This document shows, in pieces, positions 9,610 to 26,481 of a stretch of DNA of 32,091 nucleotides. A model generated the notes under the pieces. It saw only the letters and a program-made list of their open reading frames with translations, searched no databases and was not told the DNA's origin. Every line of letters starts with the position of its first letter. The first letter of the stretch is position 1. The position numbers and the translations under genes were made by a program. Source of the stretch: Vulcanimicrobiota bacterium (GTDB lineage Bacteria; Vulcanimicrobiota; Vulcanimicrobiia; Vulcanimicrobiales; Vulcanimicrobiaceae); NCBI GenBank assembly GCA_019236495.1, contig JAFAIW010000159.1, positions 1 through 32,091 on the forward strand, given 5' to 3'.

Positions 9610-9688
9610 GAGCCGGGCTCACGCTTCTGCCGAGGGGCACGATCTCCTCGGAATAAAGTGTGCCGGAGGCGGGGCCGATAGTAACAGC

Positions 9689-10465
9689 GTGCCTGTTGAA
9701 CAGAAGGTAGACCTGCCGGTCAATTTGACCCTTCAATTCCCGCTTCCTGACGGTCGCGAACTGGTGCGCGGGCCCCTGACGTACAACTTCGACGGCGTTG
9801 CGACGTTTCACGTCGCCGAGTTTCTCAAGGACGAGCGGTTCAAGCGCGCGTGGGTCGCCGGTGTGAGCACCGAGCACCAACCTCCGGAATTCGAGAATTA
9901 CTGGGGAATCTACATCCACTGCTGGGCGGCGCAGCATGCGCTCCGGCTGCCGGGAGATTTCGTCGATTGTGGGGTCCACACCGGGATTTCTGCTCGCGCC
10001 GCGGCGGACTACGTCGCATTTGAGAGCGTCCACGACAAGACGTGGTTCTTGGTAGACACCTACGCGGGTGCGCCGATCGAGCAATTCACGGCCGAGGAGC
10101 TCCAGCTCGGCGCAGCGGAGCGCGCGAAGCGCTACGCGCTCGATACTTTCGGGATTGTGCAAAGAAGCTTCGCCCGGTATTCGAACGTGCGACTCGTCAA
10201 GGGCGCGATTCCCGAATCATTGAGCCAGGTAACGTGTGAGAAGATCGCCTATCTCTCGATCGACCTCGGCAGCGCCTACGCGGAAACCTCGGTCGCCCGC
10301 GTATTGTGGAAGCGCATGGTCCGCAGCGCAATTGCGATTCTGGACGGCTACGCCAGCGAGTCGCGGCGGACACCCCTAAAAGCCGCGTGGGACGAGCTCG
10401 CGGCGGAGATGGGATTTTCGATCGTCACCGTCCCGACCGGACAAGGCTTGCTCATCAAGGCGTGA
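9689..10465 (+). CDS. Divergent TylF/macrocin-O-methyltransferase-like protein
   Basis: GDFVDCGVHTGISARAAADYV (SAM motif-like), WFLVDTYAG, LVKGAIPESL and IAYLSIDLGSAY...AIAILDGYA align with the TylF pattern; the ORF opens at 9608 but GTG 9689 (MPVEQKVDLP) is a plausible start. Confidence 0.7.
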   Translation: MPVEQKVDLPVNLTLQFPLPDGRELVRGPLTYNFDGVATFHVAEFLKDERFKRAWVAGVSTEHQPPEFENYWGIYIHCWAAQHALRLPGDFVDCGVHTGISARAAADYVAFESVHDKTWFLVDTYAGAPIEQFTAEELQLGAAERAKRYALDTFGIVQRSFARYSNVRLVKGAIPESLSQVTCEKIAYLSIDLGSAYAETSVARVLWKRMVRSAIAILDGYASESRRTPLKAAWDELAAEMGFSIVTVPTGQGLLIKA

Positions 10466-10469
10466 ACCC

Positions 10470-11315
10470 ATGGCGATAGATCAGCGACTGTATATGATGA
10501 TGTGCCGGGAGTACAAGCGGGCCCCGTTTTCCGGGCCGGCACTCTTCCTCGGCAGGCAGCGAGCGGAACTCCTGGCGCTCGCCCAAGCGCAACAGGTAGT
10601 GCGCGACACGGGCTTGACGCCGGCAGAATTGCCGGCCGACTTCGATACGCGGCCGAACATCCCGTACTGCCGGACCCTCAATGAAACCAACGACGAGGCC
10701 CTGGTTCGCCTGCTGGGATGCGACGAAGTTCACGCGATGGACTACTCCGAATACGAAGGCGCAGACATCATTCACGATTTGAACGATCCGATTCCGGAGG
10801 AACTCGCGAATCGCTTTGGACTGATCGTCGACTCCGGCACCATCGAGCACATTTTCGACACTCGCCAGGTGATGCGCAACATCGGCAATATGTTGAAGCC
10901 TGGTGGCCGCGTGATTCATTTTACGCCTGCCAACAACGCGATGGAGCACGGGTTCTTTCAAATGAGCCCGACGTTCTTCGCGGATTTTTATGGCGAGAAT
11001 GGGTTTACCGACGTCGATGTGTGGATCGTCATTCAACCGCGCGACTGCCCACCCGGCAAACCGCTGCGAATGTTTCAGTACGATCGGAAGGTCTTCGGCG
11101 GCTCGAACAGCGTTTGGTCGTCCACCGAGGATCAGATTTTTCTCAACGTCAGTGCGACCAAAACGGCCACCTCGACGACCGACAGAATTCCCGTACAATT
11201 TCGCTATCTGCTGCGCTATCAGGAATTCAAGCAGGGGTCCGCGCCCTACCAATTCCCACTGTTTCTCGTGCGTTGGAACGGGGCGGACTGCGATCTCGTT
11301 CAGGTGGCCCAATAA
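10470..11315 (+). CDS. SAM methyltransferase-like protein (class I fold, degenerate motif I)
   Basis: VHAMDYSEYEGADIIHDLNDPIPEELANRFGLIVDSGTIEHIFDTRQVMRNIGNMLKPGGRVIHFTPANN resembles Methyltransf_11/23 post-motifs. Confidence 0.65.
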   Translation: MAIDQRLYMMMCREYKRAPFSGPALFLGRQRAELLALAQAQQVVRDTGLTPAELPADFDTRPNIPYCRTLNETNDEALVRLLGCDEVHAMDYSEYEGADIIHDLNDPIPEELANRFGLIVDSGTIEHIFDTRQVMRNIGNMLKPGGRVIHFTPANNAMEHGFFQMSPTFFADFYGENGFTDVDVWIVIQPRDCPPGKPLRMFQYDRKVFGGSNSVWSSTEDQIFLNVSATKTATSTTDRIPVQFRYLLRYQEFKQGSAPYQFPLFLVRWNGADCDLVQVAQ

Positions 11316-11365
11316 ATTCGGACGGCCCTTTCACCGATGATGAGCTTGGGAAGGGAGTCCTGGAC

Positions 11366-11956
11366 GTGGACGTCGTCGACCGGTATTTGAGCGAAACCGA
11401 GGCTGGAATCCGCGCGATTTCACGCGACGACGTGCGCGCCGTGGTCGATGCCCTGTTTGCGGCTTGGCTCCAGGGTCGAACCATTTTCATCGTGGGAAAC
11501 GGCGGCAGTGCCTCGACGGCATCGCACATGATGAACGACCTCAATAAATTTACGTCGATCGAAGGTCGCCGGCGTATGCGCGCGATTGCGCTGACCGACA
11601 ACGTTCCGCTCATGACTGCGTACGGCAACGACCTGAGCTACGAAGACGTCTTCGTCGAGCCGCTTCGCAACTTGATGCGCGGCGGTGACGTCCTCGTTGC
11701 GATCTCCGGCTCTGGGAATTCGCCCAATGTGATCAAGGCCGTCCAGTATGCGATGGAGCACGACGCACAGGTCATCGGGTTGTGTGGCTCTCCGGGCGGC
11801 AAGCTTGCGACGCTGTCACACCTGCGGGTCGTCGTCCCCGCGGCGCAAATCTGCCAACAAGAAGATGGGCATCTCGTTCTCAATCACGCAATCGCAATGG
11901 CACTGCGCGCGCGAATAGCAGCCTCGGAAACAAGCGCTGCTCCGTCCGTCGTCTAA
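11366..11956 (+). CDS. SIS-domain sugar isomerase, GmhA-like (sedoheptulose-7-phosphate isomerase family)
   Basis: [40 protein letters not shown] and [14 protein letters not shown]; the ORF opens at 10718 but GTG 11366 with purine-rich GGGAAGGGAG upstream is the likely start. Confidence 0.87.
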
Positions 11957-11959
11957 CCG

Positions 11960-12949
11960 ATGTCCAAGGTCGTCGTCACGGGTGGTGCGGGCTTCATCGG
12001 CAGCCACCTCGTCGAGCGGCTCGTCGCGGATGGACACGACGTCGTAACGATCGACAACCTCGCTGTCGGCAGGCGTTCGAATCTCCGCGCAGTCGAGCGC
12101 AACGGACATTTCAGCTTTCACGCGCTCGACCTGAACGACCCCTCCGCGGCCGCGCTCTTCGCGGGAGCGCATACCGTATTCCATCTTGCGGCGCTCGCGG
12201 ATATCGTTCCGTCGATCGAGCGACCGGAGTCATATTTCCGCGCCAATGTCGATGGGACATTCGCGGTGGTCGAGTGTGCACGTCGCTCCGGCGTGCGTCG
12301 GATCGTCTACGCGGGCTCATCGTCGTGCTACGGCATTCCCGATTTCTACCCGACGCCAGAGACCGCCGAAATTCGCCCGCAGTATCCGTACGCGTTGACG
12401 AAATATCTCGGCGAGTGCATCGCGCTGCACTGGGGCAAGGTCTATGGGATCCCGAGTGTGTCGCTGCGGTTCTTTAACGTCTTTGGGCCACGCGCGCGCA
12501 CTTCAGGAACTTACGGGGCCGTCTTCGGTGTCTTCCTTGCGCAGAAGCTGGCCGGAAAACCGTTCACGGTCGTCGGCGACGGTACGCAAACGCGCGATTT
12601 CACCTATGTCAGCGACATCGTCGACGGGATCGTTGCGGCGGCGGATAGCGACGTCAAGGACGAAGCGATCAATTTGGGCAGCGGCGGGACGTACAGCATC
12701 AACGAACTCGTTGGTTTGCTAAACGGACCCGTCCAGTACATTCCAAAGCGGCCCGGCGAACCTGACAGTACGTTCGCCGACGTGACGAAGGCAAAGCGTC
12801 TGTTAAACTGGGAGGCGAAGGTGTCGTTTGCGGAGGGTGTCCGCTCGATGTTGGAGCACATCGACGATTGGCGCGATGCGCCGGTTTGGGACGCAGAGTC
12901 GATTCACAAAGCGACGGAAGCGTGGTTTCGTCACCTGAGCACGGCGTAG
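11960..12949 (+). CDS. NAD-dependent epimerase/dehydratase (extended SDR)
   Basis: [56 protein letters not shown] (YxxxK), [10 protein letters not shown]. Confidence 0.94.
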
Positions 12950-12969
12950 GCAGCAATAGGAATGAAACG

Positions 12970-13971
12970 GTGAGTTCGAACGGCATGCGGCGGGTCTTGG
13001 TGACCGGCGGCGCAGGATACGTGGGAAGCGCGCTCGTGCCGCGCCTCTTGGCCGCCGGCCACGAAGTGACGGTTCTGGACCTCTACTTGTACGGCGACGT
13101 TCTCACCGAAAGCGCCGGTCATCGAAGCCTGCGCCAAGTTCGCGGCGACATTCGCAATCGCGCCGACGTTCGCCATGCGCTTGTCGGCGCAACCGACGTC
13201 ATCCACCTGGCCTGCATTTCGAACGATCCAAGCTTCGAGCTGGATCCCGCCTTAGGACGCTCGATCAACTACGATTGTTTTCCGATGCTTGTGGACGAGG
13301 CGAAAGCTGCCGGCGTTTCGCGTTTCGTTTATGCGTCGTCGTCGAGCGTGTACGGCTTGCGCGACGAGGACAACGTTACGGAGGATCTGGCACTGCGGCC
13401 GCTCACCGATTATTCGAAATACAAAGCGATGTGCGAAGAGGTCCTTCTCGACCGTCGCGAACCCGGCTTTGCCGCCTTGACGGTCCGCCCCGCGACCGTC
13501 TGCGGCTATGCGCCGCGACTGCGCCTCGATTTGACCGTCAACATCCTGACCAACCACGCGGTAACGAATCGGGCGATCCGCGTATTCGGCGGGGAACAGA
13601 TGCGCCCGAACATCCATATCGAAGACATGGTCGACTTCTACCTTCGGAGCCTGACGTGGCCGGCGGAAGCAATCGACGGGCGCATCTATAACGCGGGCTA
13701 TCACAACCGGCGCGTCCGCGAGATCGCAGAGTCGGTGCGTACGATCGTCGGCGACGACGTTTCCATCGGCGTCGAGCCCACCGACGACAATCGTTCGTAC
13801 CACATTTCTTCCGAGAAAATCAAACGCGAGCTGGGGTTCGAAGCGCAGCGATCGATCGAAGATGCGGTTACGGATCTCGTAGCGGCGTTTGAACGCGGTG
13901 GCGTGCCGAATTCGATGACCGACGATCGTTACTACAACATTCGCACCATGCAAAGGGTGCATCTCGCGTAA
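12970..13971 (+). CDS. NAD-dependent epimerase/dehydratase (extended SDR), second copy
   Basis: RVLVTGGAGYVGSALVPRL, HLACISNDPSFELDPALGRSINYD, YSKYK active site, RPATVCGYAPRLRLD; start GTG 12970 or ATG 12985 inside the 12868 ORF. Confidence 0.92.
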   Translation: MSSNGMRRVLVTGGAGYVGSALVPRLLAAGHEVTVLDLYLYGDVLTESAGHRSLRQVRGDIRNRADVRHALVGATDVIHLACISNDPSFELDPALGRSINYDCFPMLVDEAKAAGVSRFVYASSSSVYGLRDEDNVTEDLALRPLTDYSKYKAMCEEVLLDRREPGFAALTVRPATVCGYAPRLRLDLTVNILTNHAVTNRAIRVFGGEQMRPNIHIEDMVDFYLRSLTWPAEAIDGRIYNAGYHNRRVREIAESVRTIVGDDVSIGVEPTDDNRSYHISSEKIKRELGFEAQRSIEDAVTDLVAAFERGGVPNSMTDDRYYNIRTMQRVHLA

Positions 13972-15090
13972 ATGGCGGTAAGAGCGGAGCCCGACCTCGT
14001 CACATTTTGGCGACACGATCTGGGCGACGCCGAGGCAGCCAAGGTCGCGGAGGCAATTGCCCAACGCCGCTTGAGCCAGGGCCCGATCACGGGGGAACTC
14101 GAGGCCCGTCTCGCCGCTTACTTGGGGGTGGCCCACGTTGCGATGACGACCAGCGGGAGCACGGCGCTCTATGCCGCGGCCGCTACGCTTGGCATCGGAC
14201 CCGGCGATGAGGTCATTCTGCCAAATCGCACGTTCATCGCCACCGCGCATGCGATAATGCTGACCGGGGCGGCGGTACGCCTCGTCGATTGCGAAATCGA
14301 ATCGACGGTGATCGACGCCTCGCAAATCGAGCGAGCGATTACGCCTCGCACAAAAGCGATTCTCCCGGTTCACTTGAACGGAAACGCCGCCGACATGGAG
14401 TCGATCAACGACATCGCGCGGCGGCACGGGCTCTTCGTCATCGAAGACGCCTGTCAGGCATTGGGCTCGCGCTCCGCGGCGGGTGCGCTCGGGGCCTTGG
14501 GCACGTTCGGATGCTTTTCGCTTGGGGCGACCAAGATCGTCACGACGGGGCAAGGCGGATTCGTCGCGACGAGCGACCCCGCATTGCATCAGCGGCTCGT
14601 ACTGTTTCGCAATCACGGGGTCAGCTCGACGTTCATCGCGCGCTACGAGCATTTCGGCTTCAACTTGAAGTACAACGACGTTTTGGCATCGATCGGGCTC
14701 GCGCAGCTCGATCGGATCGACGAGTACGTCGCAAAGCATCGCGCGCAATACCGGCGCTACCAGGCGGCGCTTGCCGATTTACCGTTCATCAGCATGCTCG
14801 AGATGCCGATCGACGACGGACGGGTACCGCTCTGGATCGAGGCCGTCTGCTCCGCACGAGACCGCGTGCACGAACATCTGCTGGAACGGCGCATTCAAAC
14901 GCGCCCGTTCTTGCCGGATTTGAGCGAATCGCCGCACCTCGGGAACGACGACGCACTCTTCGTTCGTTCAAAGCGCTTTCGCAGGGACGGTATCACGCTG
15001 CCGTGCGGGCCCGACCTCTCGGACGAACAATTCGAGCGTACCATTACGGCGCTTGCCGAGTTGCGGGATTTGCCGCCGTACGGCGCCTAG
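13972..15090 (+). CDS. DegT/DnrJ/EryC1/StrS family sugar aminotransferase
   Basis: LSQGPITGELEARLAAYLGVAHVAMTTSGSTALYAAAATLGIGPGDEVILPNRTFIATAHA, VIEDACQALGS, PLP lysine in FSLGATKIVTTGQGG. Confidence 0.95.
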   Translation: MAVRAEPDLVTFWRHDLGDAEAAKVAEAIAQRRLSQGPITGELEARLAAYLGVAHVAMTTSGSTALYAAAATLGIGPGDEVILPNRTFIATAHAIMLTGAAVRLVDCEIESTVIDASQIERAITPRTKAILPVHLNGNAADMESINDIARRHGLFVIEDACQALGSRSAAGALGALGTFGCFSLGATKIVTTGQGGFVATSDPALHQRLVLFRNHGVSSTFIARYEHFGFNLKYNDVLASIGLAQLDRIDEYVAKHRAQYRRYQAALADLPFISMLEMPIDDGRVPLWIEAVCSARDRVHEHLLERRIQTRPFLPDLSESPHLGNDDALFVRSKRFRRDGITLPCGPDLSDEQFERTITALAELRDLPPYGA

Positions 15091-16001
15091 GCCCGTAGCA
15101 GCGCCGCGTAGTTCATCGGGCGCCTTACTGCGTCGGGGGAATCCGTGGGATAGATCGGAAGGACGAGATCGGTTTCGAGCGTCCATCCGCCCGCGCGACA
15201 GAGCTCGCGAATCTCGTCCGCCGAATCGAACATGTAAATGTGGTCGACGTTCGCTGCGAAGACGACCGTCGTGACGAAAAATGGGGCGCGCGGCTTGAGC
15301 GCGCGGCGGATCTCTGAGAGAAGACGCTCCGGATGCTCGACGTGCTCCAATACTTCGCCGCAAACCGCGGCGTCGGCCCAACCATCCGCCGCGGGAATGC
15401 GTTCGGCGGCGTTCGCCAGCTCGAACCGCATCGAGCCTTCACCCCTCTCGTCCGCATAGCGGCGCGCGAACGCGACGGCGAGCTCGCTGATGTCGACTCC
15501 CAAATACTCCATCGCGGGGACGCGTTCGCGCAGCTCGCGCAGATGATAGCCGGTGCCGACGCCGACCTCGAGCACGCGCCCTCCTGCGGGGACCTTCGGA
15601 ACGAACGCTTCAACGAACAGGCGGTTCATCGCGAAGTGGTTGGGCCACAACGCTTCGCTGAGCAATAAGCCCGGCAGATAGTAATGCGAAAACACCTCCG
15701 GATTGGAGTAGACGCGCTCGAACGCGTCGCGTTCGTTTGAAAGGAGGTAACGTCCGGTTTGCTCGAGGCGCCGCTGCAGGGTGAGGAACTCGAGCGAAAG
15801 TGCGACGTATCCCTTGACGCTGGACTGTAGCCAGTCCGAGCCGTCGAGCTCCTCGAGGCGGGCGGCAATCGCAGCGAGCGCGGGCATGCGCTCGCGCAGA
15901 GGCGGATCGCCCGCCTCGGCGGCTTTCCGCAAAAACGGCATCTGGCGCGCGAGCTCGTCGAGGACGGCCTGCGCGCGCGCCTCGTGGAGCTCGGCCGTCA
16001 C
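15087..16001 (-). CDS. Class I SAM-dependent methyltransferase
   Basis: GGRVLEVGVGTGYHLRELRERVPAMEYLGVDIS, AAVCGEVLEHVEHPERLLSEIRRALKP; GTG 16001 forms a GTGA overlap with the FkbH-like stop; the longer ORF to 16235 is a frame extension. Confidence 0.9.
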   Translation of the reverse strand: MTAELHEARAQAVLDELARQMPFLRKAAEAGDPPLRERMPALAAIAARLEELDGSDWLQSSVKGYVALSLEFLTLQRRLEQTGRYLLSNERDAFERVYSNPEVFSHYYLPGLLLSEALWPNHFAMNRLFVEAFVPKVPAGGRVLEVGVGTGYHLRELRERVPAMEYLGVDISELAVAFARRYADERGEGSMRFELANAAERIPAADGWADAAVCGEVLEHVEHPERLLSEIRRALKPRAPFFVTTVVFAANVDHIYMFDSADEIRELCRAGGWTLETDLVLPIYPTDSPDAVRRPMNYAALLRA

Positions 16002-17767
16002 GTGGCGATCCACTGCGGCGCTTCGAATGCAGCGGGGAGAGCAAGGACGTAGCGCCGCCTCATCTCGCTCGCTTCGGTCTGCCGCATGCCGAAGCGGTCG
16101 AAGAGGTCCTCGACTTGGGCGTTTTTCGCGGTCGCGAGATACTCCGCGCGAAGGACCGTTGCACCGGCCCGAGCGAGCTCGTCGAGCAGACGAGCCCAAA
16201 GTGCGCGCTCCGCTCCGCGCCCCAGTGCGCGGCAACTGAGCAGAAACGTGTCGAGGCGCCGTTCTCCGGCGGCGTCGCCCCGAATCGCGATGGCCAGCCC
16301 GACAATCCCTTGATCCCCGAACCGGTCGCGCAGCGAAAGCGTCAGTGCGGTCGTACCGGGCTCGTCGAGAAGGCGGCGAAGGTCGCCCGGTCCGTGGCGC
16401 CGCGTCGTCACGTTGAACTGGTTCGTCTTCGCGATCAACTGTGCGGCACGTTCGAAGCTGCGTTCGTCGACGGGTTCTATGCTCGCATGCAACTCGAGCG
16501 AATGGAGAAAATCTTCGAGATTCGGCGCCCGCACTTCGAGCGCGGCGCGCTGCCGTTGCGCAGCGTAATCTTGCGATCTCACGCGGTCGGTCTCACTGAG
16601 GCGCAGCGCGTCGAAGAGCGGAGTCTCTTCGAGCGCGCGAAGGATTCCTAACGGATCGCGTCCGCCCTCGATCAGTGCGACCTCGGGAAGCTCGTGCCGA
16701 ACTTCTTCCAACTCGAAGGCTTGGTCGTCGACGAACGCGAGTGCATCGACGCCGAGATTCAGCTCGGCGGCGATCGAGCGCAGGTTGAGGCTCTTTGCTT
16801 CCCAATTGATGCGGATTGCCGAGAAGTCGCCGAGCTCGAGCGGCATATCGGGTCGCGCCGCAAATGCTTCGGTGACGTCTGCGGGATTGTTCTTGCTGAC
16901 CAACGCCAAGAGAACGCCGCGCGCTTTCAGGTCGAGCGCGAGTAGTTGAATCCGGCGATAGACGCTTCCCGGAAAATCATGGCCGATTTGCAGTCCGTCG
17001 ATGCCGTCTTCACCGAGTATCCCGCCCCAAAGTACGTTGTCGAGGTCCAAGACAAGAACTTTGCGCGGTGCGACCAACAGCGGTCGCAGCGTTCGTGCGA
17101 CCGCAAAGGCAAAGGACTTCAACGCGCTTGCGGCGATCGGCTGGCGTGCGAAGAGATCCAGTTTGCGATCGAACGAGGCACTGCCGGCGCGCGCCGCCCA
17201 CGCCGCAAAGTCGAACACATAAACGTTTGAGCTGCGCGCGGCGAGCGCAAGGATCGCCGCGTTCAACCGCGCGACGATCTCGCCGAGACCGAAACCCGCC
17301 GTCAAATCGCTCAGCGTCACGGGATCGACCGGCGGGAAAGTCGAGAGGAAGAGCGGCGCGGATGAAGCGTTGCGGAACCCGGCAGTCAGCGCCTCGATCC
17401 GGTCCCGAACCTCTTCGAAGGCGCGCTCGCGTTGTGCGCCCGTCAAAGCGTTCGGTGCCGCGCAGAGATCGGGATGCAGGTCTTGCAAGCGCCACAAGAC
17501 GAGCACGGCGCTGGGGTCCGACGCGAAGATCGCGGAAGAAGGATCGAAGAGCAGCGGTTCCAGCACGCCGTAGTCACCGATGAACACCTCCGGCGAGCAC
17601 GGAATCAGTGCGAGCGCGAAGGCCAGCGCGTCAGCCTGCGTTTCGAGCGTAAAAGTCCGGGCTATCGACAGCCGAAACGGCGGCGCGTTGCGGCTTCTTT
17701 CGCGAATCTCGGCCAGCGCGCGCTTCATCGACGAAAGGCGCCCGTCGCTTAGCGCTTCGTCGATCAC
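15998..17767 (-). CDS. FkbH-like HAD-superfamily IIIC protein
   Basis: KVLVLDLDNVLWGGILGEDGIDGLQIG, LVSKNNPADVTEAF, FVDDQAFELEEVRHELPEV, KTNQFNVTTRRH and FLLSCRALGRGAERAL are HAD-IIIC/FkbH hallmarks; GTG start overlaps the upstream stop as GTGA. Confidence 0.95.
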   Translation of the reverse strand: MIDEALSDGRLSSMKRALAEIRERSRNAPPFRLSIARTFTLETQADALAFALALIPCSPEVFIGDYGVLEPLLFDPSSAIFASDPSAVLVLWRLQDLHPDLCAAPNALTGAQRERAFEEVRDRIEALTAGFRNASSAPLFLSTFPPVDPVTLSDLTAGFGLGEIVARLNAAILALAARSSNVYVFDFAAWAARAGSASFDRKLDLFARQPIAASALKSFAFAVARTLRPLLVAPRKVLVLDLDNVLWGGILGEDGIDGLQIGHDFPGSVYRRIQLLALDLKARGVLLALVSKNNPADVTEAFAARPDMPLELGDFSAIRINWEAKSLNLRSIAAELNLGVDALAFVDDQAFELEEVRHELPEVALIEGGRDPLGILRALEETPLFDALRLSETDRVRSQDYAAQRQRAALEVRAPNLEDFLHSLELHASIEPVDERSFERAAQLIAKTNQFNVTTRRHGPGDLRRLLDEPGTTALTLSLRDRFGDQGIVGLAIAIRGDAAGERRLDTFLLSCRALGRGAERALWARLLDELARAGATVLRAEYLATAKNAQVEDLFDRFGMRQTEASEMRRRYVLALPAAFEAPQWIAT

Positions 17768-18918
17768 GGCATGCTCGCTCCGCCCGTCACCGGAATGTTC
17801 GCTCCGTTGATGAACGCCGCACCGGGCCCACACAGAAACGCCACCACCTCCGCCACGTCCTCCGGTTCGCACATGCGGCGCAAAGGGTTCTTCGCCGACT
17901 CAACCTGCTTCGTGCGTAGAGGAACGTTCACCGACGCGGCGGTGTTCATCATCGACGGCGACACCGCATTGACGCGAATGCCCGCCGGACCGTACTCGAG
18001 AGCCATCGAACGGATCAGGCCCCACAACGCCATCTTTGCGGAAACGTATGCGGCAAGCTTCGGCGGCGGCTGATCGAAGACGTACTGTGAAAGCACCGCA
18101 ACGATGACCGACTGGGCGGCCATTTGCGCGAGAAGCGCGCGCGAAATCTCGTAAAAGGCTTCGACGCTAACGCGCCAATGTTCGCGCAGGGCCTCGCCGT
18201 CATCGGGGAACGCATGCGCCTCGGGCATCGCACCCGCGGCGTGAACGAGCCCCGCAATGGAGCCGGATTCGAGCTCCGCTTCAACCGCACGCGCCAGTGC
18301 AGCTCCAGTGGAGAGATCGATGCTGCGGAACGGAACGTTCCGCGTCCATTCCCCGTGTCTCTCGAATCGCTCGCGATTGCGGCCCCATGCGACAACCTGC
18401 GCACCTGCGTGCGACAAACGCGCGCAGATTTGCGCACCGACGTCGCCGCTCGCGCCGGTCACCAAGATGCGCTTGCCGGCGACCTCACTCGCCGGCCGCT
18501 CCGAGGGTTGGTCGATCATCGTAACCTTCGCTTTCGCTTCGAAGAAGACGGCTCCGTCTTCGGTACCGGCGCCCGTGATGTCGAGATCGAGCGTGTTGGT
18601 GGAAGCGCTTACCGAACGCACCGTGCCGGTGATTTCCAACTCGGTGCCGATGCGGATCGGTCGCTTCCAACGAATTTCGAACTCGTTCCAAAGTGCTCCG
18701 GGGCCGGGCAAATGCATCCCGATGAGCGTCGACACAAACGAGGCGGCAAGCATGCCGTGCACGACTTGTCCGCCCATCGGGGTGCGACGCGCGTAATCGG
18801 GTGAAACGTGGAGCGGATTGCGATCGCCGGTGAATTCGGCAAACGCGGAGAGTTCATCGGCACCGAACCGATGAATTATCGTCCGTGAGTCACCGGCGGA
18901 CCAGCGGTTCACTTTCAA
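17764..18918 (-). CDS. MaoC-like hydratase / short-chain dehydrogenase-reductase fusion
   Basis: N-terminal FTGDRNPLHVSPDYARRTPMGGQVVHGML (MaoC hot-dog); C-terminal KRILVTGASGDVGAQI...YVSAKMALWGLIRSMALEYGPAGIRVNAVSPS...INGANIPVTGG (SDR). Confidence 0.94.
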   Translation of the reverse strand: MKVNRWSAGDSRTIIHRFGADELSAFAEFTGDRNPLHVSPDYARRTPMGGQVVHGMLAASFVSTLIGMHLPGPGALWNEFEIRWKRPIRIGTELEITGTVRSVSASTNTLDLDITGAGTEDGAVFFEAKAKVTMIDQPSERPASEVAGKRILVTGASGDVGAQICARLSHAGAQVVAWGRNRERFERHGEWTRNVPFRSIDLSTGAALARAVEAELESGSIAGLVHAAGAMPEAHAFPDDGEALREHWRVSVEAFYEISRALLAQMAAQSVIVAVLSQYVFDQPPPKLAAYVSAKMALWGLIRSMALEYGPAGIRVNAVSPSMMNTAASVNVPLRTKQVESAKNPLRRMCEPEDVAEVVAFLCGPGAAFINGANIPVTGGASMP

Positions 18919-20017
18919 TTTCCGAGAGCGTTTGAGGTGCGTCCAAGTCCCAGTCCGCGCGCGTGACGTACAGCCGCCCCGCCTCCGGCTCCAGGATGTC
19001 GTCCGCGCGCAGATAGATCAAATTGTGCCGAAAAGGCTTTCGCTCGACGGGCTGGATTCGATTGGGAAGGAGCGGGTGCTCCGGCTCTTCCAAACCCCAG
19101 CCTGCCGCCGCCAGGGTCTCGTGGAAAGCCGGCGGCGACCCGGTGAAGTCCGCGAAAACGCAACCCGCACTCGCGAGGTCGCGGGAAGCTGCCGCCAGCG
19201 CGCGCAAACCGCTCTCCCGTCCTCGCTCGCCGGCGGGATGAAAAAAATCGACAATTCTTCCGACAAGCACCGTTTCGTCATCGAGTGCTCGCTCGATGCG
19301 AGTAGCGCAGAGCGCCGGTTCGCCGGCTTCGCCCGCGATGTAGACGCGATAGGCGTACGCCGGATGCTGCCGGTACCGATGCGCGATGAAATCCGGCGAA
19401 CGCCGGGCGCAATATGCCATCGCGGGGTAACGCGTCCAATCGGGGCGATATGCAGCGGGATCGTACGGGGTAACGCCGCCGGATTCGGCGGGACGGTGCC
19501 GCAACGTGTCGAGCCGAGCGCTGCGTGCCCCCGGCAGCAACAGATCGCGGACGCGCTGCGGATCGAAGACGACGAGCGAGCGCGGCAGCGCCGGGATGAG
19601 CGTGGCGCCTAACCGCTGCATGATGGCGGCGCTTTCGGGTTTCCAAGGACTGCCCAAGAGCAGAGGAAAGAGCGCTCGGGCTGCCGCCAGGAGGCGCAAT
19701 CCGGCTCCGTGCCGGTACGCCGCATCGACCATCCAGTGGCCGATCCACGCCGCCGTGACTTCGGCTTCTCCCCACTGCGTTGTAACCGGATGGTAGCCGA
19801 GCATCCCGGTCAGCCGGTCGCCGTCCCAAACGCTCAAGATATTCGCGCTATCGTCCTCGACGTCGAACGTCCAGTCGAACATGGGGCGTGCGCGCAGCGG
19901 TGTATCGGGACGGAGGTTTCTCGCGACGAACGCATCGAGTTTTTCCCACTCGCGCATCGGGAAACGGGTTCGAACGACCGGCCCTTCGCCCCGCGCGGCG
20001 GGAAGCGACGACGTCAC
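18890..20017 (-). CDS. GNAT-family N-acyltransferase-like protein
   Basis: LTGMLGYHPVTTQWGEAEVTAAWIGHWMVDAAYRHGAGLRLLAAARALFPLLLGSPWKPESAAIMQRLGA matches the GNAT core; ATGA overlap with the ACP gene. Confidence 0.75.
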   Translation of the reverse strand: MTSSLPAARGEGPVVRTRFPMREWEKLDAFVARNLRPDTPLRARPMFDWTFDVEDDSANILSVWDGDRLTGMLGYHPVTTQWGEAEVTAAWIGHWMVDAAYRHGAGLRLLAAARALFPLLLGSPWKPESAAIMQRLGATLIPALPRSLVVFDPQRVRDLLLPGARSARLDTLRHRPAESGGVTPYDPAAYRPDWTRYPAMAYCARRSPDFIAHRYRQHPAYAYRVYIAGEAGEPALCATRIERALDDETVLVGRIVDFFHPAGERGRESGLRALAAASRDLASAGCVFADFTGSPPAFHETLAAAGWGLEEPEHPLLPNRIQPVERKPFRHNLIYLRADDILEPEAGRLYVTRADWDLDAPQTLSEIESEPLVRR

Positions 20018-20253
20018 AATTCTGCGCCCTTTTCCCGTAGAATCGTTCGAATGACCCCGACGTTGACGAACTCCGCGATCTCGAGCAAGTCGAACGTTAC
20101 GCCGAAACGCTGCTCGAGCTCGGCGATCAAATTCACCATGCCGAAAGAATCCCAGCCTTGCACGTCATCGTGCGAGGAGCTTTCGGCGAGCGACCCCGGA
20201 TCGACCGAGAACACGTCGGCGATTGCGCGGTACAGTGGATCGTCGGCCGGCAT
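20014..20253 (-). CDS. Acyl carrier protein
   Basis: 79 aa; phosphopantetheine-site context VQGWDSFGMVNLIAELEQRFGVTFDLLEIAEFVNVGVI. Confidence 0.93.
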   Translation of the reverse strand: MPADDPLYRAIADVFSVDPGSLAESSSHDDVQGWDSFGMVNLIAELEQRFGVTFDLLEIAEFVNVGVIRTILREKGAEL

Positions 20254-20255
20254 CT

Positions 20256-20654
20256 TCAGATGGCGTGCGGGGTTACCGCGAGTTTCTTGACGGCAAGGAT
20301 CTCTTCAACGAGATCGCAGTCGCTCGACGTGCGAACCGCCAGCTCTTCGAGCGCGAAGCGGAATTCGCGGCCTGCGTCGAGGACGGCGTCGAAGAGCGCG
20401 CGGCGTCGCAGCGGATCTTCGGGGAGCATCTCGAGGGAGTAGAAGACGATCCCGTCGATCGAGGCCAAATCGCGTAGCGTTGCGTCCAGCATCATGTAGC
20501 AATCCGGCATATAGTACTCCGTATTGCTCAGCAAGAAAACCGCCCCCTGGCGCGCGCAGTAATCGCGAATGACGAGGTTCTGAACGCGCTGGGGAATGAG
20601 GCTACCGGCGATCTCGCGGCTGAAGATGTAGCCTCGCAAGCGGGCAGCGCTCAT
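20256..20654 (-). CDS. Sporadic carbohydrate cluster protein, LIC12192-like family
   Basis: LRGYIFSREIAGSLIPQRVQNLVIRDYCARQGAVFLLSNTEYYMPDCYMML...SIDGIVFYSLEMLP matches my recall of this family; co-located with a 2OG-Fe(II) oxygenase. Confidence 0.8.
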   Translation of the reverse strand: MSAARLRGYIFSREIAGSLIPQRVQNLVIRDYCARQGAVFLLSNTEYYMPDCYMMLDATLRDLASIDGIVFYSLEMLPEDPLRRRALFDAVLDAGREFRFALEELAVRTSSDCDLVEEILAVKKLAVTPHAI

Positions 20655-21466
20655 CGGATCGAGGGTTTCCGGTAACTATACCCGATTTTGGTCGCTGGGC
20701 GCGTCGTTATCGGAAGGAACGTTTCGCCGAGCGGCTTCGTGTCGTAAGGCGTCAACAGGGACTTGAAGCGCACGTTGATGCTCCAGCGAGCTTTCTCTTC
20801 GAGGTTCACTCGGTTACCGTGCGGCACGGTGTGCGAAAAAAGGACGACGTGACCGTAAGGAACTTCCAGCCAAACGACGCGATCGGCGATCGCGGCAAAA
20901 AAACCTTCAGCGTCGAGTGAAGCATAATGTGGGAAGTCGTCGTAGACGTCTTCGGCTTCGTGGCGCGGCAAGACGAACATCGAACGCGTGCGATAGCAGT
21001 CGACCAAAGGTAACCAACTCACGACCTCGTAAGGCGAATTTCCCGACCAGACGTCCGAGTGGACGGGGAGAACCGAGTCGGCATCGCGCGGGAGTTGGAT
21101 GCTCAAATTGCACGACCGTTGCATTGCCAGCTCGTTACCGGCGAGCCAGGCCAGGTGTTGTTTGACGAGCCGGTAGACCCCGATGCGCGTGCCGTCACCG
21201 CCGGCTGCGAGATGGCGAATCAGGGCCAGCCGAAAATCGTTCAAGCCGTCGACGGTGACGTGATGGTGAATGGAGTCGAAGAATTCGTCTCGGTCGACGT
21301 GCGCGCCGAGCAAGCGTAGCCCCTCGCGATAGATGCCGTCGCGCAACGCGTCCAGCGAGTCCCGATCCTCGACGGCAAAGATCACATAACCGTCTCGCAA
21401 GAATCGATCGATCGCCGCTTGCTCGTTCGGCTCGTAAAAGCTCACGTCTACGGTCTGCATCTCCAC
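20651..21466 (-). CDS. 2OG-Fe(II) oxygenase (sporadic carbohydrate cluster / PhyH-like)
   Basis: HxD in VLPVHSDVWSGNSPYEVVSWLPLVDCY, distal His in VVLFSHTVPHGNRVNLEEKARWSINVRFK; ATGA overlap with the LIC12192-like gene. Confidence 0.85.
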   Translation of the reverse strand: MEMQTVDVSFYEPNEQAAIDRFLRDGYVIFAVEDRDSLDALRDGIYREGLRLLGAHVDRDEFFDSIHHHVTVDGLNDFRLALIRHLAAGGDGTRIGVYRLVKQHLAWLAGNELAMQRSCNLSIQLPRDADSVLPVHSDVWSGNSPYEVVSWLPLVDCYRTRSMFVLPRHEAEDVYDDFPHYASLDAEGFFAAIADRVVWLEVPYGHVVLFSHTVPHGNRVNLEEKARWSINVRFKSLLTPYDTKPLGETFLPITTRPATKIGYSYRKPSIR

Positions 21467-21673
21467 GAAGAGCGTCGACCCCCGTTCGATGGAACTTTAG
21501 GAAGCCGAACACTCCATTGCAAACGACAGGTAAAGAGGACCTGCGAGGATACGGTGCTCCTCAAGGAAGGCGCCGCCAAAACCGAAGATTGGAAGGAGAC
21601 CGAGCGCTCCCCCAACGGGGGCGATTTTCGGGCGCCTTTTGCACGTGGCGGGCAGGTGTTGTTGAGGAATTCC
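21467..21673. promoter_or_regulatory. Divergent intergenic region, probable bidirectional promoter of two cluster operons
   Basis: About 207 nt between divergent starts (minus 21466, plus 21674), the largest intergenic gap in the cluster; SD-like GAGGAA at 21664 before ATG 21674. Confidence 0.5.
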
Positions 21674-23206
21674 ATGGTCGCGGGACCGCCGTCGAAAGTC
21701 CAATCGCTGGCAGAGCTCGCCCTAACGATCGAAAATCTCAAGCGGGAGGGACGAAAGGTCGTCCTATGTCACGGCGTTTTCGATTTGCTGCACATCGGAC
21801 ACATTCGCCATTTCAGCGAAGCGAAGGCATTGGGCGACGTGCTTGTGGTCACCTTAACCGAAGATCGGCACGTCAACAAAGGGCCTCATCGTCCGGCGTT
21901 CACGGAAGCGCTACGCGCGGAAGCGCTTGCCGCGCTGGGCATGGTCGACTACGTCGCCGTGTCGCGCTATCCCGATGCACAAGCCGTCATCTTGCAACTG
22001 CAACCCGACATTTACGCCAAAGGTCCCGACTACAAGGATGCCTCGGCAGACGTCACCGGAGGCATCGTCAAGGAGCGAGAGGCCATCGAGTCGGTCGGCG
22101 GGTCGATCGTGTTCACTGAAGACGTTACCTTCAGCTCGTCGGCGCTACTCAACCGGCATTGGCGAGCGTTCGACGACGGCGTCGAGCGGTATCTTCAGGA
22201 ATTCCGCTCCCGCTATTCCGCACGCGACGTGATCGAGCACGTCGAGCGGCTGAGCACGATGCGCGTTGCCGTCGTCGGCGAAGCGATTCTCGACGAATAC
22301 GTCTACTGCGACCAATTGGGCAAATCCGCGAAGGACCCGGTCTTGGCGATGCGATTCGAATCGGCGGAGGTGTTCGCCGGCGGCGCGCTTGCCGTTGCGA
22401 ATCATCTTGCGGGCTTCTGCCGCTCGGTCGAGCTCGTGAGCTACCTGGGAGCGAACGGCGATCCCCACGAGAATCTCATACGAAGCAGTTTAAAGCCCAA
22501 CGTCCGCCCCAACTTCATCTACAAGAAAAACTCGCCGACGATCCTGAAGCGACGTTATATCGAGCGAGTTCTTTTTACGAAGCTCTTCGAGCTGTACATG
22601 ATCAACGACGAGCCGATTTCCGAGGAGGAAGAGGGCGTCCTGGGATCGTTACTCGACGCGCGTTTGGAAAATGCGGATCTCGTGGTGGCGGCAGATTTCG
22701 GACACGGACTCATTACGCCTCGCATCGTCGCGCAGCTGGCGAGCAGCGACCGGTTTCTGGCCGTAAACACGCAGGTCAACGCCGCGAACATCCGGTTTCA
22801 CGCGATCTCGAACTATCGCCGGGCGGACTACGTCTGCATCAACGAAGGCGAGCTTCGATTGGATGCACGCAACCGTACCGCGGCGGTGGACCATTTGATC
22901 GGCGGATTGAACGAGAAGCTCAATTGCAGTCGCTTTCTGGTGACGCGCGGCAAGAGTGGGGTGAGTTACTTTGAGAGCGGGCGCCAGGTCGACAGCCCGT
23001 CGTTTGCGCACAACGTCGTGGACCGCATCGGGGCGGGAGACGCCGTGTTGGCGATCACGTCGGCTTGCGCGGCAGCGGGGACCCCGCCCGAAATTCTGGC
23101 GTTTCTCGCGAACGTGATCGGCGCGCTCAAGGTGGAGATCATGGGCAATCGTTCTTCGGTCGACCGCGTCTCCACGATCAAGTTCATCGAATCACTGTTG
23201 AAATAG
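21674..23206 (+). CDS. Bifunctional nucleotidyltransferase (N-term) / PfkB sugar kinase (C-term), HldE-related
   Basis: KVVLCHGVFDLLHIGHIRHFSEAKALGDVLVV (HxGH cytidylyltransferase-like), then PfkB FAGGALAVANHLAGF and VVDRIGAGDAVLAI. Confidence 0.93.
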   Translation: MVAGPPSKVQSLAELALTIENLKREGRKVVLCHGVFDLLHIGHIRHFSEAKALGDVLVVTLTEDRHVNKGPHRPAFTEALRAEALAALGMVDYVAVSRYPDAQAVILQLQPDIYAKGPDYKDASADVTGGIVKEREAIESVGGSIVFTEDVTFSSSALLNRHWRAFDDGVERYLQEFRSRYSARDVIEHVERLSTMRVAVVGEAILDEYVYCDQLGKSAKDPVLAMRFESAEVFAGGALAVANHLAGFCRSVELVSYLGANGDPHENLIRSSLKPNVRPNFIYKKNSPTILKRRYIERVLFTKLFELYMINDEPISEEEEGVLGSLLDARLENADLVVAADFGHGLITPRIVAQLASSDRFLAVNTQVNAANIRFHAISNYRRADYVCINEGELRLDARNRTAAVDHLIGGLNEKLNCSRFLVTRGKSGVSYFESGRQVDSPSFAHNVVDRIGAGDAVLAITSACAAAGTPPEILAFLANVIGALKVEIMGNRSSVDRVSTIKFIESLLK

Positions 23207-23207
23207 C

Positions 23208-23804
23208 ATGGTCATCGGTATCGATTTCGACAACACGATCGTCAACTACGACGGACTTTTTTCGAAGGTCGCGGCCGAGGTGGGGCTCGTGCCCGTCACC
23301 TTTCGAGGAAGCAAGACGGAAATCCGCGACCATCTGCGCGCGCACGGCGCGGGCGACGACGACTGGCAACGCGTTCAAGCGGAAGTCTACGGACGCCGAA
23401 TCGAAGCCGCGCCGCCCTTCGAGGGAATCCGGGAATTCCTGGAGCAGTGTCGGATGCGATCGATCCCGACGCACATCGTGAGCCATAAGTCGACTCACGC
23501 GCCGTTGGATCCTCTGCGCACCGACCTGCGCGCCGCGGCTGCGAAGTGGCTCCAACGTCACGACGTGCGCGTGGAAAGCGTGCATTTCGAGGGATCGCGA
23601 GCCGCGAAACTCGCGCGTATCGCGTCGCTCGGCTGCACGCATTTCGTCGACGATCTCGAAGAGATTTTTCTCGAGCCGGCGTTTCCGGACGGCGTAGAAC
23701 GGTGGTTGTTTGCCCCGGCTCATTCGAGTCGCGGCTCCGGATGCCGAACGGTGCAAAGTTGGCGAGACCTGGCGGATGAACTCTTTGGCGTTCGCGCGCG
23801 TTGA
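23208..23804 (+). CDS. HAD-superfamily hydrolase-like protein
   Basis: MVIGIDFDNTIVNYDGLF (motif I), THIVSHKS (motif II), GCTHFVDDLEEIF (motif IV). Confidence 0.85.
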   Translation: MVIGIDFDNTIVNYDGLFSKVAAEVGLVPVTFRGSKTEIRDHLRAHGAGDDDWQRVQAEVYGRRIEAAPPFEGIREFLEQCRMRSIPTHIVSHKSTHAPLDPLRTDLRAAAAKWLQRHDVRVESVHFEGSRAAKLARIASLGCTHFVDDLEEIFLEPAFPDGVERWLFAPAHSSRGSGCRTVQSWRDLADELFGVRAR

Positions 23805-24741
23805 CGTTCCGCGAAAGGGCGGAAACAACCGCCTTTCGTGCATTCAGGCCGGGGCCGGTCGCGTTGCAGAAAAACGCTACGACGCTTCGAGTGCCGACGG
23901 CCTCGAACGGCTCGAGCGTGAGGCTTGCGCGCTCGAGTTTCTCGGTACGCTGGGCGTTCGTAACGTTCCGCAGCTCGTCAGCGTCGATCGCGAGAATCGC
24001 GTCCTCTGCATGGAATGGATCGAAGGTGGTCCTGCGGACTCCATAACTGACGAAGATATCTCGACGGCGCTCTCGCTTGCTGCGACCCTGCATGCAGCCC
24101 GAACGAACGCCGGCGCACACCGGTTGCCGCTCGCTCGCGAAGCCTGTCTTTCGCTCGAGGCGCTGTGCGAGCAAGTGCGCGCGCGCCTGACGCGGCTGCG
24201 CGCCGCCGGCGAGGGCGACCTCGAGCTCCTGCTCGACCGGGCGGCGCGTGCATTCGCACGGGCGGAGAGCGACGCGCGTTCTGCTCCTCTCCGCGAGACG
24301 CTTTCGCATGAAGAAGCGACGCTGTCGCCTTCCGATTTCGGCTTTCACAACGCCCTGCGTACGGCCGACGGCCGCTTGACCTTCATCGACTTCGAATACT
24401 TCGGCTGGGACGATCCCGTGAAGCTGACCGCCGACTTTCTGCTCCATCCCGGAATGGCGCTCTCGCCGGAGCAGAAGCGGGCGTTTGCCCGTGGTGCGGA
24501 AACGATCTACGGGGGCGATGCGCAATTTCGCGCGCGGCTGGTCGCGCACTTCGATCTCTACGCGCTGCGCTGGGCTGCGATCGTTCTCAACGAGTTTCTT
24601 CCCGAAGGGCGAGCGCGCCGTACGTTTGCCGGCGGCGAGCGCGATTGGGAGGCGACGAAACACACGCAGCTCGCGAAAGCGCAACGCTTGCTCGACGAGC
24701 TCGAAAGCGGTGCGGTGCACGAGAGTCTTGCCGATGGATGA
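23776..24741 (+). CDS. APH/choline-kinase-like phosphotransferase
   Basis: EREACALEFLGTLGVRNVPQLVSVDRENRVLCMEWIEGG and LSPSDFGFHNALRTADGRLTFIDFEYFGWDDPVKLTADFLLHP; ATG 23776 overlaps the HAD gene by 29 nt. Confidence 0.87.
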   Translation: MNSLAFARVDVPRKGGNNRLSCIQAGAGRVAEKRYDASSADGLERLEREACALEFLGTLGVRNVPQLVSVDRENRVLCMEWIEGGPADSITDEDISTALSLAATLHAARTNAGAHRLPLAREACLSLEALCEQVRARLTRLRAAGEGDLELLLDRAARAFARAESDARSAPLRETLSHEEATLSPSDFGFHNALRTADGRLTFIDFEYFGWDDPVKLTADFLLHPGMALSPEQKRAFARGAETIYGGDAQFRARLVAHFDLYALRWAAIVLNEFLPEGRARRTFAGGERDWEATKHTQLAKAQRLLDELESGAVHESLADG

Positions 24742-25534
24742 ACGATCGCGCTACCTCAGGCGGCTCACCTTCGATGCGCTCGAAGGTGGAAAGCGCGGAC
24801 ACGTCGGCGCGACGCTTTCGCTCATCGAGATTTTTCGCGTTCTTTACGACGACGTACTGAGCGTTCGACCGGACCAGCCGCAGTGGCCGGACCGCGATCG
24901 CTGCATCCTCAGCAAGGGTCACGGTTGCCTGGCCCTCTATGCGGTGCTTGCCGACAAGGGGTTCTTCCCGATGGAGGAGCTCGTGCGGCAATGCTCTCCG
25001 GGCGCGCTGCTGGGCGGGCACCCCGAAACGCACATCCCGGGCGTCGAAGCGTCGACGGGCGCGCTCGGTCACGGGCTTCCGATCGGCGTGGGCATGGCGG
25101 TGGCGGCGCGCATGCAGGGACGCTCTCACCGCGTGTTCGTCGTGATGGGCGACGGCGAGCTGGACGAGGGTTCGGTGTGGGAAGCGGCGCTCTCGGCAAG
25201 CAAGCACGCCTTGGACAATTTGATCGCCGTGATCGACTACAACAAATTGCAATCCTATGGGCCGGTGAGCGAAGTCCTGCCGCTCGAACCGCTTGCCGAC
25301 AAGTTACGCGCCTTCGGCTTTGAAGTTCGCGAAGCCGACGGTCACGATGTCGCCGCGTTGCGAACGGCCTTTGCGGATCTTCCAGCCGCAGTGGGAAAGC
25401 CCACGGCGCTGATCGCCCATACGGTGAAGGGCAAGGGCATCGATTTTGCCGAGCACAACGCCGCGTGGCACCACAAAGCGAAAATCGACGCCGCGGCGGT
25501 AGACGAATTGCGTGCCGCCCTGGAGCGCGCCTGA
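24734..25534 (+). CDS. Transketolase, N-terminal (TPP-binding) subunit
   Basis: DRCILSKGHGCLALYAVLADKGFF, VEASTGALGHGLPIGVGMA, VMGDGELDEGSVWEAALSASKHALDNLIAVIDYNKLQSYG. Confidence 0.96.
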   Translation: MDERSRYLRRLTFDALEGGKRGHVGATLSLIEIFRVLYDDVLSVRPDQPQWPDRDRCILSKGHGCLALYAVLADKGFFPMEELVRQCSPGALLGGHPETHIPGVEASTGALGHGLPIGVGMAVAARMQGRSHRVFVVMGDGELDEGSVWEAALSASKHALDNLIAVIDYNKLQSYGPVSEVLPLEPLADKLRAFGFEVREADGHDVAALRTAFADLPAAVGKPTALIAHTVKGKGIDFAEHNAAWHHKAKIDAAAVDELRAALERA

Positions 25535-26481
25535 TGCGGCAAGTTGCCGTCAACGCCGTCTACGAACTGGCAAAACGCGACCCGCGCGTGGTCTTCATCG
25601 GTTCCGATCTCGGGCCCGGTGTGCTCGAAAAGATGAAGACCGAAATGCCCGAGCGATTTTTTATGGAGGGCGTCTCCGAAGCACACGTGATTGGAATGGC
25701 GGCCGGGCTTGCGATGGAGGGATACGTTCCTTACATCAACACGATCGCGACCTTCCTTACGCGACGCTGCTACGAGCAGATTGCCATCGACGTCTGTTTG
25801 CACCGTCTTCCGGTGCGACTGATTGCGAGCGGCGGCGGCGTCGTCTACGCTCCCCTCGGACCGACGCACATGGCGACCGACGATCTCGCGCTGATGCGCT
25901 CTCTTCCGCATATGACCGCGGTCGCTCCGGTGGACGCGGACGAGATGCGGCGTCTGATGGACGCCTCGCTCGCATACGACGGCCCCCTCTACATTCGGCT
26001 GGCAAAAGGCGGCGATCCGATCGTTTCTCGAGGTGACGTGCCGTTTAACATCGGCGAGGCGATTCGCATGCGCGGCGGCGACGATGTTCTTATGGTTAGC
26101 ACGGGCGTGATGACGACGCGTGCACTGGAAGCCGCAAAGCTGCTGGAGAATGCCTCGATTTCGGCGTGCGTGCTGCACGCGCACACGTTGAAACCGTTCG
26201 ACGAGGAAGCAGTGCTCACGCTGGCGGCCGGCAGACAGCTCGTCGTTACCGTCGAGGAGCACAGCGCGATCGGTGGACTCGGGAGCGCGGTCTGCGACCT
26301 GTTGGCGCAGAGCGCCCTGGCGGTTCCCGTCCTCAAGCTCGCGTTGGCCGACGGCTTTTCCCACGAGTACGGATCGCAGGATCACATTCTGGAGGTTGCT
26401 CGCCTGACGCCGCCGCATATCGCCGAGCGCGTTTCCGACGCGCTGCGCGCAGCGCACCGCCGCGTTCGTGCGGTGCTGTAG
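25534..26481 (+). CDS. Transketolase, C-terminal (pyrimidine-binding) subunit
   Basis: VVFIGSDLGPGVLEKMKTEMPERFFMEGVSEAHVIGMAAGLAMEGYVPYINTIATFLTRRCYEQI; TGATG coupling with the N-subunit. Confidence 0.96.
   Translation: MRQVAVNAVYELAKRDPRVVFIGSDLGPGVLEKMKTEMPERFFMEGVSEAHVIGMAAGLAMEGYVPYINTIATFLTRRCYEQIAIDVCLHRLPVRLIASGGGVVYAPLGPTHMATDDLALMRSLPHMTAVAPVDADEMRRLMDASLAYDGPLYIRLAKGGDPIVSRGDVPFNIGEAIRMRGGDDVLMVSTGVMTTRALEAAKLLENASISACVLHAHTLKPFDEEAVLTLAAGRQLVVTVEEHSAIGGLGSAVCDLLAQSALAVPVLKLALADGFSHEYGSQDHILEVARLTPPHIAERVSDALRAAHRRVRAVL

Follow-up and report, generated by a model that had tools for sequence, protein, structure and literature searches.

The 32,091-base contig analyzed here (hereafter the window), a complete contig of a Vulcanimicrobiota draft genome (JAFAIW010000159.1), carries a block of seven tightly coupled minus-strand genes that a preliminary description had presented as a single acylation cassette. 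We find that these genes are two units and not a single pathway. Five of them, encoding an acyl carrier protein (ACP), a GNAT acyltransferase, a fusion of a MaoC dehydratase/hydratase with a short-chain dehydrogenase/reductase (SDR), an FkbH protein and a methyltransferase (MTase), belong with a convergent DegT/DnrJ aminotransferase gene, while a 2-oxoglutarate (2OG)-Fe(II) oxygenase and a LIC12192-family protein form a separate pair. On balance, we favor the view that DegT and the MTase-FkbH-(MaoC-SDR)-GNAT-ACP genes are an inserted amino-sugar acylation module in a surface-glycan locus that follows a lactyl route. Its product is probably a three-carbon acyl group drawn from a glycolysis intermediate and attached to a surface amino sugar, with lactyl as the most likely identity.

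In order of transcription, the seven genes are the 2OG oxygenase of the sporadic carbohydrate cluster family (20651..21445; TIGR04324, 281.9 bits against a cut-off of 150), LIC12192 (20256..20654; TIGR04323, 146.1 against 55), ACP (20014..20253; PF00550, 33.1 against 20.8, with a GWDSFG phosphopantetheine motif), the two-domain GNAT (18890..20017; a weak PF13527 match of 21.9 against a cut-off of 25), MaoC-SDR (17764..18912; PF01575 together with the ketoreductase models PF13561/PF00106), FkbH (15998..17767; TIGR01686, 265.9 bits against 146.65) and the MTase (15087..16001; Pfam Methyltransf_11/25, PF08241 and related models). Profile matches thus bear out the gene set that had been proposed, and each of the four pairs said to be translationally coupled (2OG/LIC12192, ACP/GNAT, MaoC-SDR/FkbH and FkbH/MTase) overlaps by 4 bp; LIC12192 and ACP are separated by 2 bp, and GNAT and MaoC-SDR overlap by 23 bp. 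Several in-frame starts, the one at 21466 among them, are possible for the 2OG gene, and we adopted the GTG at 21445. DegT (13972..15090, plus strand; PF01041, 306 bits) converges on the MTase with a 4-bp overlap of their ends. No ketosynthase was found across the 32-kb contig, in line with the first reading of the sequence.

The division into two units follows from three genomes of the same family (L011, L012 and L007), because there the 2OG-LIC12192 pair stands at the same location without the other five genes. FkbH, MaoC-SDR, GNAT, ACP and MTase are missing from the site in all three, DegT is absent from the corresponding position, and the genome of one relative (G005) gives no FkbH match. 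In L011 and L007, the pair directly abuts the second of two sugar SDR genes (NSDR2) with nothing between NSDR2 and LIC12192, and in L012 a single RfbG-like dehydratase gene lies there, while in the window the same spot is filled by DegT and the five-gene block. Both L011 and L012 keep NSDR1-NSDR2 on one side and a HAD-APH-transketolase array on the other; L007 is a 2.6-kb contig in which only the inner part of the locus is visible. This arrangement is most simply read as a gain by insertion in the window, or a loss from the relatives, at a position that varies within an otherwise conserved glycan locus. DegT is part of the same insert as the five genes. Furthermore, the TIGR04323 model detects LIC12192 in the window and in the three relatives but has no match in 11 genomes where FkbH occurs together with MaoC. 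The idea that a short ACP-bound hydroxyacyl group is made with no ketosynthase involved and ends up on an amino sugar gains support from the recurrence of its core (see below) and from DegT lying in the same insert, whereas the seven genes as one cassette do not hold together. The 2OG oxygenase and LIC12192, though co-transcribed with the module, would by the same balance of judgment serve the neighboring sugar pathway.

Most of what is known about FkbH enzymes comes from polyketide assembly. The protein in the window is of the HAD-IIIC type (glyceryl transferase/phosphatase) with an N-terminal SGNH-like domain, and its sole sequence relative in the PDB is 3slr. In an alignment of six sequences, the DxDN(T/V)xW motif and Cys512 within SCR are invariant, with D241, D243, N244, C512, R513 and R517 (the latter three in SCRxxxR) conserved in 6/6. 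The MaoC catalytic motif TGDRNPLH, of which the aspartate and histidine are retained across aligned homologues, and the SDR motif YVSAK (YxxxK) are likewise intact, as are the MaoC and SDR catalytic motifs throughout the compared set, so that an FkbH, dehydratase, ketoreductase and carrier protein set is encoded together with its active sites preserved. The ACP is dedicated to the module; the source genome, which also encodes a phosphopantetheinyl transferase, has just one other PP-binding match. The MTase has its own N-terminal domain of ~125 residues, and homologues, most of which share this domain, occur in 11/102 FkbH loci that we compared; it is a candidate acyl-ACP or glycan O-methyltransferase. 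DegT is PseC-like yet scores under the equivalog cut-offs (PseC, 219.9 vs 423.5 bits; LegC, 198.4 vs 420 bits) and likely makes the amino-sugar acceptor.

From these features we derive a route that we consider, as a whole, slightly better than an even bet; the chemistry of each step, the lactyl nature of the product and the acceptor sugar are all predicted from sequence. FkbH would move the glyceryl unit of 1,3-bisphosphoglycerate onto the ACP. The resulting glyceryl-ACP has a hydroxyl at C3 (the beta position) and a proton at C2, and MaoC could eliminate this beta hydroxyl by dehydration to give 2-hydroxyacrylyl-ACP, the enol form of pyruvyl-ACP, whose 2-keto group the SDR would then reduce to lactyl-ACP. 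Dehydration at C3 followed by reduction would explain why MaoC and SDR occur with no ketosynthase. The MTase may O-methylate the acyl group of lactyl-ACP, similar to FkbG-type enzymes that O-methylate hydroxyacyl-ACPs, and the GNAT would finally use it to acylate the amine that DegT places on the sugar. A precedent for a lactyl-ACP mechanism is found in PMC7901079, which gives FkbH loading as a reaction of 1,3-bisphosphoglycerate and ACP to D-lactate-ACP and cites the FR901464 gene-cluster study for it.

To place the window in context, we compared 102 FkbH loci, comprising at least 80 from a scan of GTDB genomes, 20 from the phylum of the window and two plasmid records. A MaoC gene on the same strand lies within 300 bp of FkbH in 19 of them, at 300-1500 bp in three and farther away in one, and MaoC and SDR together stand beside FkbH in 16, a fraction that is biased upward because the scan's query alignment included four FkbHs already known beside MaoC. 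The sample was drawn with FkbH, and most of the 102 loci lack MaoC. Twelve of the 16 have no detected ketosynthase in the available stretch, and the window is the thirteenth such case. These loci belong to Bacillota (L009), Pseudomonadota (L044, L084, L090), Melainabacteria (L069, of the Obscuribacterales), Planctomycetota (L070), Myxococcota (L074), Acidobacteriota (L080), Actinomycetota (L123), Nitrospinota (L125), Synergistota (L146) and Omnitrophota (L147), though some stretches are short (L084, 4.9 kb; L070, 8.3 kb; L146, 9.0 kb) and may miss a ketosynthase that lies farther away. MaoC and SDR are separate genes in L125, L146 and L009 and fused to ACP in L044. Subdoligranulum and Paludibaculum each carry the five-gene core of FkbH, ACP, MaoC, SDR and GNAT as a block too; in the distantly related clostridial Subdoligranulum (L009), FkbH-ACP-MaoC-SDR-GNAT stand in a row, alone among housekeeping-like genes. 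The possibility raised beforehand that homologues never co-occur outside this genome thus fails for the core. Altogether, the five genes look like a portable kit found across at least ten bacterial phyla.

The module SDRs form a family of their own: the SDR half of the window protein clusters with 16 other FkbH-linked SDRs (98% SH-aLRT, an approximate likelihood-ratio support), split from 13 other SDRs of the same loci. By comparison, the label of ketosynthase-free MaoC-SDR linkage is scattered over the FkbH tree with 12 changes, no fewer than for shuffled labels, and we therefore rejected the idea that MaoC-SDR-linked FkbHs are one clade. Scattered FkbHs and grouped SDRs suggest that FkbH and MaoC-SDR seem to have been joined repeatedly, or exchanged horizontally, with one SDR family as the partner. 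The FkbH matches in Burkholderia, Aquisphaera and S. meliloti have no MaoC-SDR in their annotation, and a plasmid match with SDR and MaoC from Cetobacterium (H8) was set aside as an unrelated butyrate/acyl-CoA operon. In a planctomycete (L070:733-8094), MaoC-SDR, FkbH and ACP are accompanied by BshC-like, PIG-L deacetylase and AMP-ligase genes that resemble bacillithiol-type enzymes.

An exchangeable ACYLTRANSFERASE adjoins the ketosynthase-free core, namely a GNAT (the window, L009, L080, L074 and L084), an AAC(3)-type N-acyltransferase (beside FkbH in L090 and fused to it in L044, the latter assigned by eye and through a weak match to the L090 protein) or an MBOAT O-acyltransferase (L069 and L146), and this variation suggests a portable generator of acyl-ACP. 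Members of the GNAT family of the window occur in L009, L080, L053 and L013 besides the window itself, and all of these loci contain an ACP, even L013 with its AMP-ligase and SDR and no FkbH (by eye), suggesting acyl-ACP rather than acetyl-CoA as the donor. The GNAT is a candidate acyl-ACP:amino-sugar N-acyltransferase. Its structure model is of low confidence (pLDDT 52.8) and has 75 PDB matches at E<=0.001, of which those listed are GNAT enzymes, including aminoglycoside and glucosamine N-acetyltransferases; we dropped any assignment of substrate from this fold model as too weak. L044 and L074 are nonulosonate loci: each combines a DUF4910/DUF2172 protein with PseF-like or NeuB genes. In Sinorhizobium sp. 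RAC02 (L044:8149-13670), the AAC(3)-like-FkbH fusion is followed by a single MaoC-SDR-ACP protein, and these fusion genes have a PseF-like cytidylyltransferase on one side and a Cj1295-type DUF4910 protein on the other.

Four loci of ammonia-oxidizing archaea carry FkbH-ACP-MaoC, and in three of them (L083, L089 and L103; at about 7900-10700) a holo-ACP-synthase-like gene comes next (by eye) in a sugar-biosynthesis neighborhood. PF00109 finds short partial matches in three of the four genomes and nothing in the fourth; since these genomes are mostly incomplete drafts or single-cell assemblies, the absence of a ketosynthase is not firm. Genomes G209 and G210 each give a single PP-binding match, which falls where the FkbH-linked ACP lies. 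That MaoC stands beside FkbH with no ketosynthase points to the FkbH-derived unit as the substrate of MaoC, and the gene content predicts a carrier-protein acyl pathway in archaea lacking a clear ketosynthase. A generalization to Bacteria and Archaea, in which a widespread ketosynthase-free FkbH-ACP-MaoC-SDR route makes lactyl-ACP (pyruvyl-ACP in the ammonia-oxidizing archaea, where MaoC is kept and the SDR is apparently missing) straight from glycolysis and exchangeable GNAT, AAC(3) or MBOAT enzymes use it to decorate surface glycans, is put forward tentatively and falls somewhat short of even odds.

Several points weigh against a lactyl module. The action of MaoC and SDR on a glyceryl or pyruvyl thioester is itself a prediction; MaoC without SDR in the archaea would stop at pyruvyl or else means another role; and the GNAT has diverged from its relatives, with which it shares 20-30% identity, and has a model of low confidence. 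A ketosynthase of the KAS-III type adjoins MaoC-SDR-FkbH in 4/16 loci (L053, L066, L071 and L134), where a condensed chain may be the substrate of MaoC-SDR, and in principle the window could draw on a housekeeping ketosynthase. Three of these loci (L053, L066 and L134) also hold an AMP-ligase, and the KAS-III version of the module suggests FkbH-primed longer acyl chains. These loci lend weight to an explanation in which MaoC-SDR works with a ketosynthase from elsewhere, e.g., housekeeping FabH, on a beta-ketoacyl-ACP of four or more carbons to make a 3-hydroxybutyryl-type or FkbH-primed longer acyl group, and 3-hydroxybutyryl amides are indeed common on bacterial amino sugars. However, the window and 12 other loci have no ketosynthase nearby, the archaeal genomes with FkbH-ACP-MaoC have short partial PF00109 matches or none, and FkbH would be redundant for 3-hydroxybutyryl, so we regard this explanation as rather unlikely. 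We give a similarly low probability to a glyceryl group, possibly O-methylated ((di-O-methyl)glyceroyl), that FkbH, ACP, MTase and GNAT would transfer while MaoC-SDR acts elsewhere or as a hydratase. Campylobacter jejuni NCTC 11168 makes di-O-methylglyceric acid derivatives of pseudaminic acid that depend on Cj1295 (PMC3068675), an FkbH domain is encoded by cj1302 within that flagellin glycosylation locus (PMC7099621), an FkbH-linked MTase family exists, and the majority of the 102 FkbH loci do without MaoC. Yet, MaoC-SDR is translationally coupled between GNAT and FkbH with its active sites kept, and MaoC and SDR are physically tied to FkbH in 12 ketosynthase-free loci.

The remaining two explanations are much less probable. 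A single seven-gene pathway, in which the 2OG oxygenase and LIC12192 modify the ACP-bound or sugar-bound acyl group, would fit one tightly coupled polycistron but was rejected on synteny given the pair without the module in three relatives, the lack of an FkbH match in G005 and of a TIGR04323 match in the 11 genomes with FkbH and MaoC; we consider it very improbable. Least plausible, to the point of being negligible, is a hydroxymalonyl/methoxymalonyl-ACP route (FkbG-K) that makes an extender unit. FkbH, ACP and MTase are all present, but the cassette lacks an acyl-CoA dehydrogenase (FkbI-like) and a 3-hydroxyacyl-CoA dehydrogenase (FkbK-like), and the contig lacks a ketosynthase to use the extender.

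Among described systems, the FkbH loading modules of trans-acyltransferase (trans-AT) polyketide synthases such as that of FR901464 share FkbH, dehydratase, ketoreductase and carrier protein with the favored lactyl module. In contrast to these, the domains in the window are discrete genes with no downstream ketosynthase, and the GNAT would release the unit, probably onto an amino sugar; given a contig without ketosynthase, the module works like a lactyl loading module without being one. A similar FkbH-containing loading module is reportedly present in bryostatin BryA. Compared to the type II methoxymalonyl-ACP pathway, with which FkbH, ACP and methyltransferase are shared, the window has MaoC-SDR in place of FkbI and FkbK equivalents. 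The flagellin glycosylation locus of C. jejuni likewise has an FkbH-domain gene in a surface-glycan locus and a glyceric-acid-derived N-acyl group, and the di-O-methylglyceroyl form of pseudaminic acid demonstrates that O-methylated glyceroyl groups exist on surface sugars (PMC3068675), though a glyceryl-forming role of cj1302 is putative. L044 and L074 also encode a DUF2172/DUF4910 protein of the Cj1295 type, whereas none of the scanned window genes encodes DUF2172 and the MaoC-SDR pair is extra in the window. In the open-access library that was searched, we found no paper that describes this gene set and none that brings FkbH together with O-antigen and acyl carrier protein, and the C. jejuni paper was the only one on FkbH and polysaccharide to treat a glycan locus; subscription literature lay outside the search, so novelty is provisional.

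Outside the acyl module, the 2OG oxygenase and LIC12192 are ordinary members of the sporadic carbohydrate cluster families TIGR04324 and TIGR04323, both above cut-off and adjacent in the window as in L011, L012 and L007; the phrase "sporadic carbohydrate cluster" was not found in the open-access library searched. The oxygenase has an HSD...H metal-binding motif (by eye). The AlphaFold2 model of LIC12192 (pLDDT 77.8), compared to the PDB with Foldseek, has as its nine best matches the catalytic domain of serine recombinases/resolvases (E 1.6e-4 to 5.6e-3). Since the resolvase D/R active-site residues are lost (by eye) and the protein stops after the catalytic-domain fold, it looks like a serine-recombinase-like fold repurposed in a carbohydrate cluster. 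Searching the PDB with both sequences, and Pfam with LIC12192 at E 10, was uninformative, and in tblastn the 2OG oxygenase, GNAT and LIC12192 matched none of the plasmid or phage records.

Flanking the block on the plus strand, and forming the borders of the insertion site, are a GmhA-like isomerase and two NAD-dependent sugar SDRs to the left (11315..13971) and an HldE-like fused kinase/adenylyltransferase, a HAD protein, an APH-type kinase and a split transketolase to the right (21602..26481). These flanks are largely conserved in two relatives, with GmhA and HldE-like genes found among the relatives in L011 only and the latter at a different position there. With GmhA, HldE-like and transketolase genes present, the sugar may be of a heptose type, possibly an unusual nucleotide-linked heptose. 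A TPR-GSCFA domain protein (29576-31174, minus strand) lies at the edge of the glycan locus.

Polyketide-type C3 loading chemistry has apparently been detached here from polyketide synthesis and put to use in glycan decoration. Each proposed step corresponds to a distinct mass shift of the carrier protein and is hence directly testable, and FkbH, carrier protein, dehydratase and reductase with swappable acyltransferases would make a searchable signature for predicting glycan decorations. If true, the module would explain how three-carbon hydroxyacyl groups come to stand on bacterial surface sugars without a fatty-acid synthase.

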